Of a stretch of 64,000 nucleotides of DNA, positions 52,387 to 63,144 are shown in pieces. Position numbers and translations under genes: made by a program. Under the pieces are notes generated by a model. That model was given only the letters and a program-made list of their open reading frames with translations, ran no database searches and was not told the DNA's origin. Source of the DNA: Eubacteriaceae bacterium (GTDB lineage Bacteria > Bacillota > Clostridia > Eubacteriales > Anaerofustaceae); the NCBI GenBank assembly GCA_009782515.1, contig WRIY01000012.1:1-64000 (forward strand). Reading direction: 5' to 3'. The number at the start of each line of letters is the position of its first letter. Position 1 is the stretch's first letter.

Positions 52387-53616
52387 TTACCTGGTTCTTT
52401 CGTGTTCGCCTTTGTTCAGGCTGCGCTGGCGATCTTCACGCCTTTGTTCGGCTTGCTCAAGAATTTTGTCTATTGCCCTGCCTATTTCCTGGCTGTCATG
52501 TGAGGCGGCCTGGCGGTAGCCTAGTGTTTCCTCGCGAAGCTTTTCATGCTCTTTGCTGAGCAAGCCGATCTCATGGCTCAGCTCATCCCTTTGCCGGGTG
52601 GTCTCTGCAAGCTTCTCGGCAAGAGAATCGGCAGCAAGCTCAAGAGCGCTTGAGCTCATGAGGATTTCTTGCGCCTTGTTCCAGTCTTCGGGCGATATGA
52701 CAATGTTTCCGAAAATATTCTGCTTGCCAAAGCTTTTAAGCTCTGACAGCGACGCCTCAGCATGCTCTACGCTCTCCAGAATGCTTTGTGCATGGTATAA
52801 ATCCTTTTCAATTTTCGCGACACTCCTGGTTAGCTCTTCTCTTTTCAATTCAAGGCTGTTTAGCAGCTCCCTCTCTTTCATCGTTTTAAATTCAAGCGTT
52901 GACAAATGCTTTTGGCTTGATCCCCTCTCCCCCCTTTCAAAGCCTTCAAAACCAGCCCCGCTCATGTGCTCAAAGTAGCGATCCTGCAGCCTTGCGTATT
53001 CTGAGATCTTTTCCCTGGCGCCATTTTCAAGCGTCTCATATCTGCTGGGCCATTTTTGGGAATGGCTTATTCTATAAGCGCTCTCTTTAACCTGGCCGGC
53101 AAGCGATTGATCCTTATAGTTAATCGGGTATTTTATTTCAGAATAAACAGCTGGTATGTATGCAACATGCATGTGGTAGTGAAATACCGACTTGCCAAGC
53201 TCAATGCTAAGGTTTTTATGGATTTCATCCGCGTGCATAACGGCTGATATAATCCATTTCTCATCGCCTGCCTCTTTAATGGCGTATTTATACCCTTCCT
53301 CATAAAAGCGCTTGGCATAGCCATACCCGCCTCTTTCTTCAAAGTAAAGGCTGTTAACGTCCATCACGAACTCATCCATAATGTATGATGTTCTTTTCAG
53401 GCCGTATTTTGAGAGCTCGCCCTTATCGAGCAATTGGCTAATGTATTCACTGTAGCTTGACTCAGGCGCTTTGAAGTGGACGTTCATTTCGCTGCGCGAA
53501 GGCATTATCCCTGAATTTGTGTAAGCTTGGCTGTTTCGCTCGATATGGCTCTGGATATTTTTAATGCCGGCTTGCAGGTATGCTTTGTTGAGTATTACTG
53601 TTTTATGCTCTGCCAT
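52387..53616 (-). CDS. MobV/Pre-family relaxase (plasmid recombination protein), orphan
   Basis: The 409-residue protein has an N-terminal relaxase domain (to about 210) with the MobV motifs RSEMNVHF near 42 and HADE...HYHMHVAYIPA near 127-155, the metal-binding histidines, and a C-terminal coiled coil (about 240-400). The DE-to-HYHxH spacing is the longer form seen in clostridial plasmid recombination proteins. It nicks DNA at oriT of small mobilisable elements. No replication, integrase or transfer gene is adjacent, so it may be a remnant of an integrated mobilisable element or a domesticated copy. Confidence 0.85.
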   Translation of the reverse strand: MAEHKTVILNKAYLQAGIKNIQSHIERNSQAYTNSGIMPSRSEMNVHFKAPESSYSEYISQLLDKGELSKYGLKRTSYIMDEFVMDVNSLYFEERGGYGYAKRFYEEGYKYAIKEAGDEKWIISAVMHADEIHKNLSIELGKSVFHYHMHVAYIPAVYSEIKYPINYKDQSLAGQVKESAYRISHSQKWPSRYETLENGAREKISEYARLQDRYFEHMSGAGFEGFERGERGSSQKHLSTLEFKTMKERELLNSLELKREELTRSVAKIEKDLYHAQSILESVEHAEASLSELKSFGKQNIFGNIVISPEDWNKAQEILMSSSALELAADSLAEKLAETTRQRDELSHEIGLLSKEHEKLREETLGYRQAASHDSQEIGRAIDKILEQAEQRREDRQRSLNKGEHERTR

Positions 53617-58238: not shown

Positions 58239-58490
58239 AAAAAAAATGCGCCGCTATAAGAGCGACACGCCGCAACCACCTTACTTCCCTGCCTTCAGCA
58301 GGGCTTAATGGGCATAACGGAGCCTATCCGTGCAGCTTTTTTTGCTGCATGCTCACAAGGCGGGATAAGCGGCTTTTTAAGCAGGGCTTTTCAGCATTTT
58401 GCCCTTCTCTGTCGGCTTTCAAATTAGCGCTATTGTCCTTGGTCACTGCATTTCTTATATGAAAAATAATATTGCTTATATAAGCAACTG
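58239..58490 (-). promoter_or_regulatory. T-box leader of proS, proline (CCG) specifier
   Basis: On the minus strand the leader has AGAGAAGGG with GCTGAAAAGCCC (stem I distal part), specifier CCG (58361-58363) exactly 10 bases before GAGC, a stem III-like CGGATAGGCTCCGTTA, and GGTGGTTGCGGCG (58268-58280) where GGTGGTACCGCG is expected. It ends in a stem with T8 (58239-58268). TGGU still fits tRNA-Pro discriminator A, but the ACC of the usual seven-base bulge reads TGC. Uncharged tRNA-Pro should allow readthrough into proS-tyrS. Confidence 0.8.
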
Positions 58491-58892: not shown

Positions 58893-59387
58893 ATGGGTAG
58901 CAGCAACTCTGTAATGATGGCAGTATTTGCATTTCTAGCCAGAGCAGTCGGGCAAAGCAGCGAATACGAGCATGCCGCAGTTTCCTTTAGCCCGTTCGAA
59001 TATGATGAAGACGCCCAAAGGTATGAAAGCTATAGCCAAGCCAGCGCCCCAGCCAGCCATGTTGCCACAGCCAGCGCCAGCCAGCTTGAGCTGGTGCATA
59101 AAAAGATTGCTGATTTGCTTGTTGATATATCGCTGATTGAATATGACCGCAGTGACACAGGCAGCATCAATGCGCTATGCAAGTCATTTTCTGAATTGCT
59201 TGGCATTGATATCGGGGATGCATTCGGCAATCCGGCCCCTGATCAAAGGCAAGCCTCTCACCAGGCATCTGGCAACCCCGGCTATAAGCTTAGAATAGTA
59301 TCTGATTCAGTTTCGCCTACATATAAATCCTGCACCGATGACGAAGAGTACCTTGAAATTATGAGGCTCTTTGATCTGTTTGATTAG
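58893..59387 (+). CDS. Hypothetical small-operon protein
   Basis: The 164-residue protein has a hydrophobic start (MGSSNSVMMAVFAFLARAVG), then an acidic and Ser/Ala-rich stretch and a helical segment around 68-105. No known family was recognised; no signal cleavage site is clear. An AGAGG site precedes the ATG. With the 53-residue protein it forms a two-gene unit that ends in an intrinsic terminator. Confidence 0.6.
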   Translation: MGSSNSVMMAVFAFLARAVGQSSEYEHAAVSFSPFEYDEDAQRYESYSQASAPASHVATASASQLELVHKKIADLLVDISLIEYDRSDTGSINALCKSFSELLGIDIGDAFGNPAPDQRQASHQASGNPGYKLRIVSDSVSPTYKSCTDDEEYLEIMRLFDLFD

Positions 59388-59596: not shown

Positions 59597-59624
59597 TTGA
59601 CATTTTCGCTTATGCATATATAAT
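59597..59624 (+). promoter_or_regulatory. Consensus sigmaA promoter upstream of the pseudo-ATPase gene
   Basis: TTGACA (59597-59602), 16-bp spacer, TATAAT (59619-59624); both hexamers are perfect consensus. A second TTGACA occurs at 59703-59708 without a good -10. Confidence 0.65.
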
Positions 59625-59625
59625 G

Positions 59626-59681
59626 ATATCGTGCAGCCTTATTATCGAAACGTATGATAATACCGAAGGAAAGCACGATAT
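59626..59681 (+). promoter_or_regulatory. Inverted repeat and hairpin at the start of the long leader
   Basis: ATATCGTGC (59626-59634) pairs with GCACGATAT (59673-59681), and TATTATC (59640-59646) with GATAATA (59656-59662) inside. The outer pair straddles the expected transcription start, so it may be an operator palindrome or a 5' RNA structure. The leader to the start codon is about 270 bases. The region to 59903 contains no other gene; a small hairpin GCCCG/CGGGC lies at 59872-59887. Confidence 0.45.
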
Positions 59682-59903
59682 TTATCAGTTGCAAATTTCT
59701 ATTTGACAAAATATGTCGGTAGCAAAGCATAAATTATTGTTTGAAATCATTCTCTATTAATTGATATCGAAGCTATATTTTCAAGATGAGAGCATGTGTT
59801 TTGCAGCGCTCGCGCGCATTGGAATGCCAACTTAGCTTTGCCAAAAACTAAGAGAGGGGCGCGCACGCCTCGCCCGACAAAACGGGCCTCTTGCGCAAAA
59901 GTT

Positions 59904-62333
59904 ATGAAAACAACGATAGCGATAAGCATGTATAGCACATCACAAGCGCTAGCCATTGAAAAAAGCCTGAACAGCATGAAGGGGATAAAAAGCGCTTCCG
60001 TCAGCTTTATTGCAGGAAAAGCCAGCATTGAATACGATCAAGAGCGCCTAAGCCCTGACGAAATTGCCGGCTGCATTGAGACGCTTGGCTTTGACGCGTG
60101 CGAAGAGTTTGATATAAATGCAGTCAGCCTGGAGCTGGACAGCAAGGTTGGCATCTCTAAAGCAGAAAGCCTCAAGAAAGCGCTGCTGTCAACAAACGGG
60201 ATTCTGTCAGCGAGCATTAAGGATGGCAGCAGCTCGCTTAGCGTAGAATACACCCCTAAATCGATAACCCTGAGCGATATACGCCTTATAGCTTCTGCAA
60301 GCCAATGCTATGTGCTCAATGCAAACAGCGCCAGCAGCGAGAGCTTTTCTGACAGGCTATACAAGAACTCAGCCAAGTCGCTAAAGCTTCGCATGGCTTT
60401 GGCGCTTGCTGCCTCATTGCCGGTTATTTACCTGGCTTCCTGGCTGCAGTATGACGTTGCCTTTATTATTATTCCAAATGCATTAAACCCGCTCATCAAC
60501 CCTCTGAATTATGCGCTTGCCCAGATGGTTTTTTCTATGCTTGCAGCTGCTGTAAGCTGGCCGTTTTTCAAGAGGGCATTCAAATGCGCAAACGCGCGCC
60601 TGGTTTCATCAGACACTGTGTCATTGGCCCCATTGGCAGCGCTGTTTTCCCTAAGCATTTATGAAACTGCAATTATTATTATGGGCGGCGCAGGCGCCTA
60701 TTCGAGCCTTGCGTTTGAAGCCTTTTGCGCCTTTCTGATTCTAAGCCATGCAATCCAGCTGGCAAACTTCACGCTTGCGCTTGCGCTTAGAAACAGGCTA
60801 AGCATTAAGGCGCCAAGCCATGCTGTTGTTGAAAATGGCGATTATACAGACATTCTGCCTATAAATGAGCTAAAAGAGGGTGTAATCGCAAGCATTGCCG
60901 AGGGCGCGCTGGCCCCTTGCGACGGCATACTCATAGACTGTGAAGGGCTGTTTGCTGAAAATGAATTTTTCACGCCAAATAAGCAAAGAAGCTTGGCGCA
61001 GGGGGATATTGTCTACATGGGCAGCGTCAACAAAGGATCCAAGGCAAAGATTGCCTGTATAGGGCCGGCAAGCAGCAGCTTTCTTGCCAAAGCGTACAGC
61101 ATGCTCAGCGGGTCTTCATATCAGCGCAGCAGCGCTTTTTCCGGCCTGCAGATTGCCAATATAGCGCTGATCGTTTTAGCTTTTGCTGCTGCAGGCGCTC
61201 TCGCAGCAATGCAAGGCATTGAGAGCGCCTGCAAAGCCTTTAGCGCCATAGCAGGCATTTTAATGAGCTTTCCTGTGCTACTCGCCAGCAGCCTGCAGAC
61301 GCTTGCTGTCCTAATCGGGAATGCCAAAAACATGGTGTTTATGCAATCCGCTGCCCAGGCAGAGGCGCTGGCAAAAACAAAAGCCTTCATATTCGACCCA
61401 AGCGCTATTTTTAGCGCCAGGCCCCAGCTCACGGAATTTAAGACTGTAAAAGGGGCCGACAGCAGGGAAGTGCTTCAGCTTGCTGCAAGCGCTGAAGCGC
61501 TCTCAAACCACAGGCATGCAAAGGCTATAGTTAGGCTTGCACAAAAAAAAGGAATAAGCCTGCTGCCTCCAAGCAAGTTTAGCGAACATGAAGAGGGCGG
61601 AGTCAGCGCTGTCATTGGCAGCACTGAAGTTGCCGTAGGGACAAGCCGGCTGATGGACTCGCTTGGCCTAAGCCCAAGCGGCATAATCCTGCCTTCTGAT
61701 CGGGATACGGCTGAAAAAAGCTGCATACTGATATCTAACGGCCCGAAGATTGTCGGAAAAATGGTGTTTGTTGATCGCATTAAAAAGAATGCGCCTGAGA
61801 GCATTAAGAGGCTTGGCAGCCAAGGCGCAAAGAGCATCTTATACTCTTCGTATGAAAACAGCAGAGCCTCCGAGCTGGCGCAAAAGGCTGGAATTGGCGA
61901 GTGTTTTGAAAAAGAGGAAAGCGAAAGCAAAGCCGGCGCCCTTAGCGCATTGGCAGAAGGCAGAAAGCCGGCAGCCATAGTAAGCGGGGCTTATATTGAC
62001 GGCTCTGCTGCTGAAAATGCAAGCGCGAGCGTAGCGTTTTGCAGCGCAGAATCGCTGGGAGAGCTTAATGCAGGCATATACATAGCAAACGGCGGCTTCG
62101 CCGGATTGTCAGCAGCTCACCGTGCCGGCAGGCAGATAGCCTCCCGGCTTGGCATCGGCATTTTGCTAAGCTACTCTGCTTTTGCGGGCTATGCATGGCT
62201 TGCGCTTGCCAAAGACGCAAGCCCGACAGCGATAGCATGCTTGGCAGCAGCAACAGGCCTGGTTATAAGCTGGGGTTGGTTCCAGCTAAGCGCAAGGCTT
62301 AAAAAGCCGCATTCTGCAAAGCAAGCGCTGTAA
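59904..62333 (+). CDS. Copper-type P-type ATPase paralogue lacking all catalytic motifs (pseudo-ATPase)
   Basis: An intact 809-residue frame with the architecture of a P1B copper ATPase: two HMA-like domains (about 5-70 and 74-130), six then two transmembrane helices, actuator, P and N domains. CxxC in the first HMA reads STSQ, TGE reads TPN (about 356), CPC reads SFP (455-457), DKTGT reads DPSAI (498-502, Asp kept), SEHP reads SNHR (534-537), TGDN reads SSYEN, and GDGxND reads SGAYID. Fold-level similarity remains throughout (for example KMVFVDRIKKNAPESIKRLGSQGAK). ATP hydrolysis and metal transport are not expected. The ATG at 59904 starts at the HMA domain, but its ribosome site is weak. 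Confidence 0.85.
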   Translation: MKTTIAISMYSTSQALAIEKSLNSMKGIKSASVSFIAGKASIEYDQERLSPDEIAGCIETLGFDACEEFDINAVSLELDSKVGISKAESLKKALLSTNGILSASIKDGSSSLSVEYTPKSITLSDIRLIASASQCYVLNANSASSESFSDRLYKNSAKSLKLRMALALAASLPVIYLASWLQYDVAFIIIPNALNPLINPLNYALAQMVFSMLAAAVSWPFFKRAFKCANARLVSSDTVSLAPLAALFSLSIYETAIIIMGGAGAYSSLAFEAFCAFLILSHAIQLANFTLALALRNRLSIKAPSHAVVENGDYTDILPINELKEGVIASIAEGALAPCDGILIDCEGLFAENEFFTPNKQRSLAQGDIVYMGSVNKGSKAKIACIGPASSSFLAKAYSMLSGSSYQRSSAFSGLQIANIALIVLAFAAAGALAAMQGIESACKAFSAIAGILMSFPVLLASSLQTLAVLIGNAKNMVFMQSAAQAEALAKTKAFIFDPSAIFSARPQLTEFKTVKGADSREVLQLAASAEALSNHRHAKAIVRLAQKKGISLLPPSKFSEHEEGGVSAVIGSTEVAVGTSRLMDSLGLSPSGIILPSDRDTAEKSCILISNGPKIVGKMVFVDRIKKNAPESIKRLGSQGAKSILYSSYENSRASELAQKAGIGECFEKEESESKAGALSALAEGRKPAAIVSGAYIDGSAAENASASVAFCSAESLGELNAGIYIANGGFAGLSAAHRAGRQIASRLGIGILLSYSAFAGYAWLALAKDASPTAIACLAAATGLVISWGWFQLSARLKKPHSAKQAL

Positions 62334-62361: not shown

Positions 62362-63144
62362 CTAGTTATACAGCGGCTTAAACCCATATGAATAAAAAAG
62401 GCCAAGGCTTGCCTCTGAGCCAATAAAAAGCGCAAATGCTTCTGCCGCGCTTTGGTTTTCGCTTGCGGAGACTACGCTTGCTGTGTAGATAGCCTCTTCC
62501 GGCGAAATGGCTATGGCTTCAAGCGACTTGGCTGCATGAATGTCGCTGTAGAAAGAAATGCCAGCATCAGCCTCCCCTAATTCCACTGCAAGCACTGCTT
62601 CGTTTGCACTATCTTTATAGACTATCTTGCCGGCCAATGAATCTTCGCTGTCAATAAATGCAATTGCCCTGTTGGCAAAGTAGCCGCTAGCTTGCTTTTC
62701 TTTGTCTGCGACAGCGATTTTTCCTACCCTGTCTGAGAGCAGTGTGTCGAATGATGCTATGCCAAGATCGTTTCCCTTGGGTACAAATAGAACTGTGTGG
62801 TTTTTAAAAAGCGCAACTTGAGAGCTTTCAACAGTTAAGCCGTCAAGATGCAGGCTATCAACCATGCTTTGTATTTCACAAACAAACAAGTCAATTTTTG
62901 CCCCAATGCGAATCTGGCTTTCAAGGGTCTGGGGCGATGCATAGTTTAGCTTGATTAATGTCTGGGGGTTGCTTTCGTTATACTGCGCTGTGAGCTGCTC
63001 GAGAGGCTCCCTCATGCTGACAGGCGCGCTGACGTAAACGCTTGCCTGGCCGCTGCTTGCTTGCGGGCCTGAAGCTTTGCTGCATGAGGCGCTTAGTGCC
63101 AATATCACAGCACATATAAGCGCAATTGTCGTTTTATTGCTCAT
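62362..63144 (-). CDS. ModA-like extracytoplasmic solute-binding lipoprotein
   Basis: The 260-residue protein has a lipoprotein signal (LALSASC, Cys near 21) and a type II periplasmic-binding fold. VYVSAPVSMREPLEQLTAQYNE and ASPQTLESQIRIGAKIDLFVCE match the molybdate-binding ModA pattern (oxyanion-contact Ser, DVF). No modB or modC is adjacent. The Ala-Ala-Ser of ModA reads SAPVS here. Molybdate, tungstate or a related oxyanion is likely; another solute is possible. No ribosome site is clear. Confidence 0.78.
   Translation of the reverse strand: MSNKTTIALICAVILALSASCSKASGPQASSGQASVYVSAPVSMREPLEQLTAQYNESNPQTLIKLNYASPQTLESQIRIGAKIDLFVCEIQSMVDSLHLDGLTVESSQVALFKNHTVLFVPKGNDLGIASFDTLLSDRVGKIAVADKEKQASGYFANRAIAFIDSEDSLAGKIVYKDSANEAVLAVELGEADAGISFYSDIHAAKSLEAIAISPEEAIYTASVVSASENQSAAEAFALFIGSEASLGLFYSYGFKPLYN

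Follow-up and report, generated by a model that had tools for sequence, protein, structure and literature searches.

Among soluble enzymes, kinases included, pseudoenzymes are common. For P-type ATPases, our literature search found only the disputed eukaryotic TMEM94/ERMA and no bacterial case. The ERMA motifs read DKQGIL and GSSANL, TGES is absent (PMC13322241), and the pump activity of TMEM94/ERMA is disputed (PMC12134183, PMC13322241). P4A and P4B ATPases, for their part, have scaffold roles that are independent of flipping (PMC10654040). Here we describe a gene that, as read from its sequence, encodes a homologue of CopA-type (P1B-1) copper ATPases from which the residues required by the known P-type cycle are absent. 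It lies in a 64-kb stretch of DNA (the window; WRIY01000012.1, positions 1–64,000) from a Eubacteriaceae bacterium (GCA_009782515.1).

Results

The reading frame of the pseudo-P1B-ATPase (P0001) occupies 59904–62333 on the forward strand and runs through 809 codons and a stop without interruption. Profile searches place the protein with TIGR01525 (E = 3e-34, residues 265–785), with the CopA models ranking next, and Pfam recognizes both HMA (3e-10, 40.7 bits) and E1-E2_ATPase (5e-8). However, the protein scores 118.8 bits against a family cut-off of 346, about one third, while the genome's own CopA reaches 638. The closest solved proteins found by phmmer against the PDB are ATP7B, plant HMA4 and Archaeoglobus CopA. 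Homology extends over the full length, and the layout is that of a complete CopA-type P1B-ATPase: two HMA-like domains, eight membrane helices and A, P and N domains in the expected order. Translation, profile matches and a structure model thus bear out the uninterrupted 809-residue frame and complete P1B scaffold of the original prediction. The composition is unusually rich in alanine and serine (133 and 107 of the 809 residues, respectively).

We compared motifs by aligning the protein with 34 intact CopAs. The first HMA-like domain (59904–60101, +; Pfam, alignment and model) keeps its fold and reads MYSTSQ in place of MSCAAC. In the second (60120–60317, +; alignment and a model of low confidence), MTCAAC is replaced by KVGISK. 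Copper-binding HMA domains carry CxxC within the HMA fold; here the fold is supported by Pfam and the model but the cysteines are missing, and CxxC is absent from the whole protein. Helices MA, MB, M1 and M2 (60390–60794, +; alignment and model) lead into the actuator domain (60795–61139, +; Pfam and alignment), where TGES has become FTPN. Within M3–M4 (61140–61328, +), CPC reads FPV at 61269–61277, with only the proline kept. The first part of the P domain (61329–61433, +) has DPSA for the phosphorylation motif DKTGT (FDPSA-I, one residue deleted), leaving Asp498 (61395–61397) as its sole survivor. TGDN and GDGIND have changed to SSYE and SGAYID in the second part (61785–62138, +), which keeps S648 (for T), K676 and D699. 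Metal-site residues are likewise lost from M5–M6 (62139–62303, +), with YN of M5 deleted and MxxSS of M6 replaced (GLVIS). None of the motifs of a functional pump (DKTGT, TGE, GDGxND/TGDN, CPC, M5 YN and M6 MxxSS) is therefore intact. The nucleophilic Asp does survive, as does a Ser/Lys/Asp set of HAD type, leaving some chemistry possible.

The N domain (61434–61784, +) retains E531, H536, G566 and G579, which we take to belong to the nucleotide pocket from what is generally known of CopA and ATP7B N domains; the first G of GxG and the N of GN are lost. H536 is the histidine of the HP motif (SNHRH). Because this histidine is kept and the genome's own CopA, reading SEHS, also does without the proline, HP is not lost in a meaningful sense. 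The claim that all catalytic and metal-binding motifs had been replaced accordingly stands for CxxC, TGE, CPC, TGDN, GDGxND and, apart from its Asp, DKTGT, but not for HP. Only 40 of the 173 residues invariant among the 34 intact CopAs are retained (23%, with 77% lost). Retention is no higher at these sites than at columns with only 60–80% conservation (27%); the former catalytic constraint therefore no longer operates.

Loss of this extent could reflect decay or continued selection on a different function. We gauged the time since pumping was lost from formerly invariant CopA sites only, which can serve as a clock because a working pump would have tolerated almost no change at them. When a CopA gene was evolved neutrally to 77% invariant-site loss, it gained a mean of 24–29 stops and a minimum of 16, whereas none is observed. 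To separate a kept frame from a kept protein, we took five CopA genes and, in 50 simulations, evolved them neutrally but without stops to equal loss. The real protein exceeded these simulations in CopA profile score (213 bits, against a mean of 60 and a maximum of 148), hydropathy correlation (0.72, against 0.35 and at most 0.58) and fraction of conservative changes (0.24, against 0.15 and at most 0.22). Being model-based, these neutral simulations stand in for dN/dS. Codon usage of the gene (0.213) falls among that of 23 window genes (0.12–0.25). Frame, hydropathy, conservative changes and profile score beyond stop-free neutral expectation indicate that selection on the protein outlasted the loss of pumping. 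The earlier argument against random decay holds up in this comparison, given no stops where simulation yields at least 16 and a profile score and hydropathy above every stop-free run. We consider it likely that the gene encodes a non-pumping protein under selection.

Remaining constraint is unevenly distributed. Identity to the CopA consensus is 35% in HMA1 and 33% in the N domain, compared with about 21% in the remainder (p = 0.018 and 0.008, respectively), and is lowest, at 18%, in the C-terminal part of the P domain. Active pumps display the opposite order: conservation peaks in the P domain and helices M3–M6 and is weakest in the N domain and HMA1. The best solved relatives of the N domain are isolated ATP-binding domains of CopA. 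This reversed conservation is our main clue to mechanism, though as a pattern it is only suggestive. An AlphaFold2 model, built from a 13-sequence alignment whose members were obtained via a DNA pattern for ACPCALGLA, has moderate confidence (mean pLDDT 65.5) and reproduces the P1B domain order. HMA1 and the N and P domains are modelled at fair confidence and the second HMA domain poorly. Foldseek matches the model best to ATP7B and Legionella CopA (E 6e-29 to 6e-25; TM 0.60 by target for CopA).

Upstream of the gene is a sigma-70 promoter, TTGACA-16-TATAAT (59597–59624, +), that agrees with the consensus at 12 of 12 positions and is the sole such match in 64 kb, where 0.03 would be expected. 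It is followed by a leader of about 280 nt ahead of the ATG (59625–59903, +), in which Rfam searches revealed no match and hence no riboswitch, and folding was not significant (z −1.5 and −0.8). Nor did we find repeats of the leader elsewhere in the genome. The ATG at 59904 lacks a Shine–Dalgarno site, a feature that most window genes and the intact copA possess. A purine-rich, Shine–Dalgarno-like run (59850–59859) ends 5 nt short of an in-frame ACG (59865), not of the ATG. Translation is uncertain for want of this site at the ATG; it could be weak or regulated, or begin at another position. The perfect promoter noted in the original prediction is real. As support for function it carries less weight, however, because it stands 280 nt upstream of an ATG without a ribosome-binding site.

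The genome is represented by one metagenome-assembled genome only (2.67 Mb, 74 contigs, 94% complete, 1.9% contamination). It encodes seven P-type ATPases, and the other six all keep DKTGT and TGE. One of the six is a typical CopA, and behind its intact gene on contig C44 come those of two small HMA proteins. The contig of the pseudo-ATPase gene also carries tuf, tyrS and proS, and the nearest ProS sequences (72–66% identity) come from Eubacteriaceae and Anaerofustis-like bacteria, several of them from guts. We saw no operon partner for the pseudo-ATPase gene at the locus. Directly upstream of proS is a T-box leader (58255–58455, −; E 9e-13, with 65 bits against an Rfam gathering score of 93), presumably a proline T-box. 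Beside the pseudo-ATPase gene, 58893–59387 (+) encodes a Ser/Ala-rich orphan of 164 aa that Pfam does not recognize and that lacks relatives in the 67 order genomes. On its other side, 28 nt away and convergent, is an orphan gene for a ModA-like solute-binding protein (62362–63144, −) with one weak relative (31%) within the family. Finally, a gene for a relaxase of the Mob/Pre plasmid recombination type (52387–53616, −) sits amid housekeeping genes; a 38% relative occurs near proS in another Eubacteriaceae metagenome-assembled genome (L046).

We looked for relatives of the protein in 61 related genomes and in genomes of its family (13), order (67), class (391) and phylum (398), plus plasmids and phages. 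The original prediction named homologues with the same lost motifs as support for a pseudoenzyme family, but none turned up in the order, class or phylum genomes, plasmids or phages. Best matches were always CopAs, at 22–26% identity and no more than about 205 bits, and those inspected were motif-complete. Close relatives with intact motifs, which would have pointed to a recent pseudogene, were equally absent from these searches. Among P1B matches across the family, the protein is the sole full-length P1B-like protein below the cut-off. One low-scoring full-length candidate from the same family (G003:C61) proved to be an ordinary motif-complete non-P1B ATPase and not a second pseudo-ATPase. 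The gene was not found beside proS in relatives. Peptide-pattern scans of genome and viral contigs, which are probably blind below about 70% identity, recovered no relative, and neither did a CopA alignment scan of the viral contigs; the DNA pattern for ACPCALGLA did yield relatives. Phylogenetic placement was uninformative, with the branch at the optimiser's limit and duplication of the genome's own copA not separated from transfer. With the gene an orphan in every collection searched, the hoped-for pseudoenzyme family was not found, and a conserved family is not supported by the sequences searched.

Discussion

Having lost every pumping part while the gene stayed unbroken and fold-like, the protein probably does a different job. 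We put at about an even chance that it is a CopA-type homologue without a pump cycle, kept as a structural, non-transporting membrane regulator or scaffold; the regulator or scaffold role, taken by itself, is just as evenly balanced. The non-transporting role of the original prediction fits the lost pumping residues and the continuing selection, whereas a regulator, scaffold or chaperone is what we infer beyond them. Mechanistically, the pump cycle would be lost: no dephosphorylation could proceed without TGE, and the first Asp of GDGxND (Mg) would no longer be available. A copper site could not form without CPC, YN and MxxSS, nor would copper be delivered without CxxC. The membrane part would then act as an anchor, the N domain, with several kept nucleotide-pocket residues, might sense or bind nucleotide, and the cysteine-less HMA fold would offer a protein–protein contact surface instead of a copper shuttle. 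The genome's intact CopA/CopZ system is a candidate natural partner. Nucleotide binding as part of the role is possible but somewhat doubtful. Equally tentative is the fuller picture of a bacterial pseudo-P-type ATPase whose entire metal-pump fold now regulates or scaffolds at the membrane in response to nucleotide, the cysteine-less HMA serving as an interaction module.

Several other explanations need to be weighed. It is unlikely that the gene is a pseudogene or nearly neutral relic that lost pumping and drifted under weak or no constraint, its stops missing by luck. The ATG without a Shine–Dalgarno site is the best argument for such a relic, and its orphan status, extreme divergence and Ala/Ser richness also fit; yet neutral drift to equal loss gives at least 16 stops, stop-free drift forfeits the profile score and hydropathy that the real protein keeps, and codon usage is fully native. 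It is possible that decay has recently set in on an already repurposed gene. An artefact of assembly, contamination or a wrong frame is highly improbable. Despite the single metagenome-type assembly of 74 contigs with 1.9% contamination, full-length homology lies in one frame and tuf, tyrS and proS share the contig; contamination was rejected on codon usage equal to that of the neighbours.

Two further readings would leave the protein some of its chemistry or its transport. As a repurposed HAD-type enzyme, it would be a membrane-bound phosphatase or autophosphorylating switch that transports nothing. The minimal set of Asp498 (DxS), Ser648, Lys676 and Asp699 is chemically acceptable at all four positions, where general invariant retention is 23%. 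We nevertheless hold this improbable, since the pattern was spotted post hoc, the C-terminal part of the P domain is the least conserved (18%), Gly replaces the first Asp of GDGxND, and the Pfam Hydrolase match is below cut-off (19.5 versus 26.4 bits). Continued transport, with a changed substrate or through a mechanism that is non-canonical or passive, of the kind argued for human TMEM94/ERMA, strikes us as decidedly unlikely. The eight membrane helices and the M4 proline are kept, and ERMA reportedly moves Mg2+ in a manner that depends on its Asp (PMC13322241). TMEM94, however, was found to have neither ATPase activity nor a conformational cycle (PMC12134183), and more motifs are gone here than in TMEM94, including all membrane copper ligands.

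If the preferred reading of a selected but non-transporting protein is true, this motif-less P1B pump would demonstrate that so large a membrane fold, with its several domains, can be put to new use without transporting anything. With an intact paralogue in the same genome to compare it with, the locus would also make a clean test case. With CopA (TIGR01511/TIGR01525; PDB 3rfu/4bbj, 3j09; ATP7B 7si3) the protein shares length, predicted fold and the order of two HMA domains, eight membrane helices and A, P and N domains. Unlike CopA, it lacks the catalytic and copper motifs, with 22–26% identity and a profile score near one third of the cut-off. Like TMEM94/ERMA, it combines P-type architecture and a kept Asp with the loss of TGES and GDGxND. 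The likeness drawn here is one of architecture and motifs; TMEM94/ERMA is a eukaryotic, conserved family with ten helices whose nearest relative is SPCA, not P1B. P4A and P4B ATPases keep their catalytic motifs, unlike the 809-aa protein, and nonetheless set a precedent for transport-independent use of the P-type fold.
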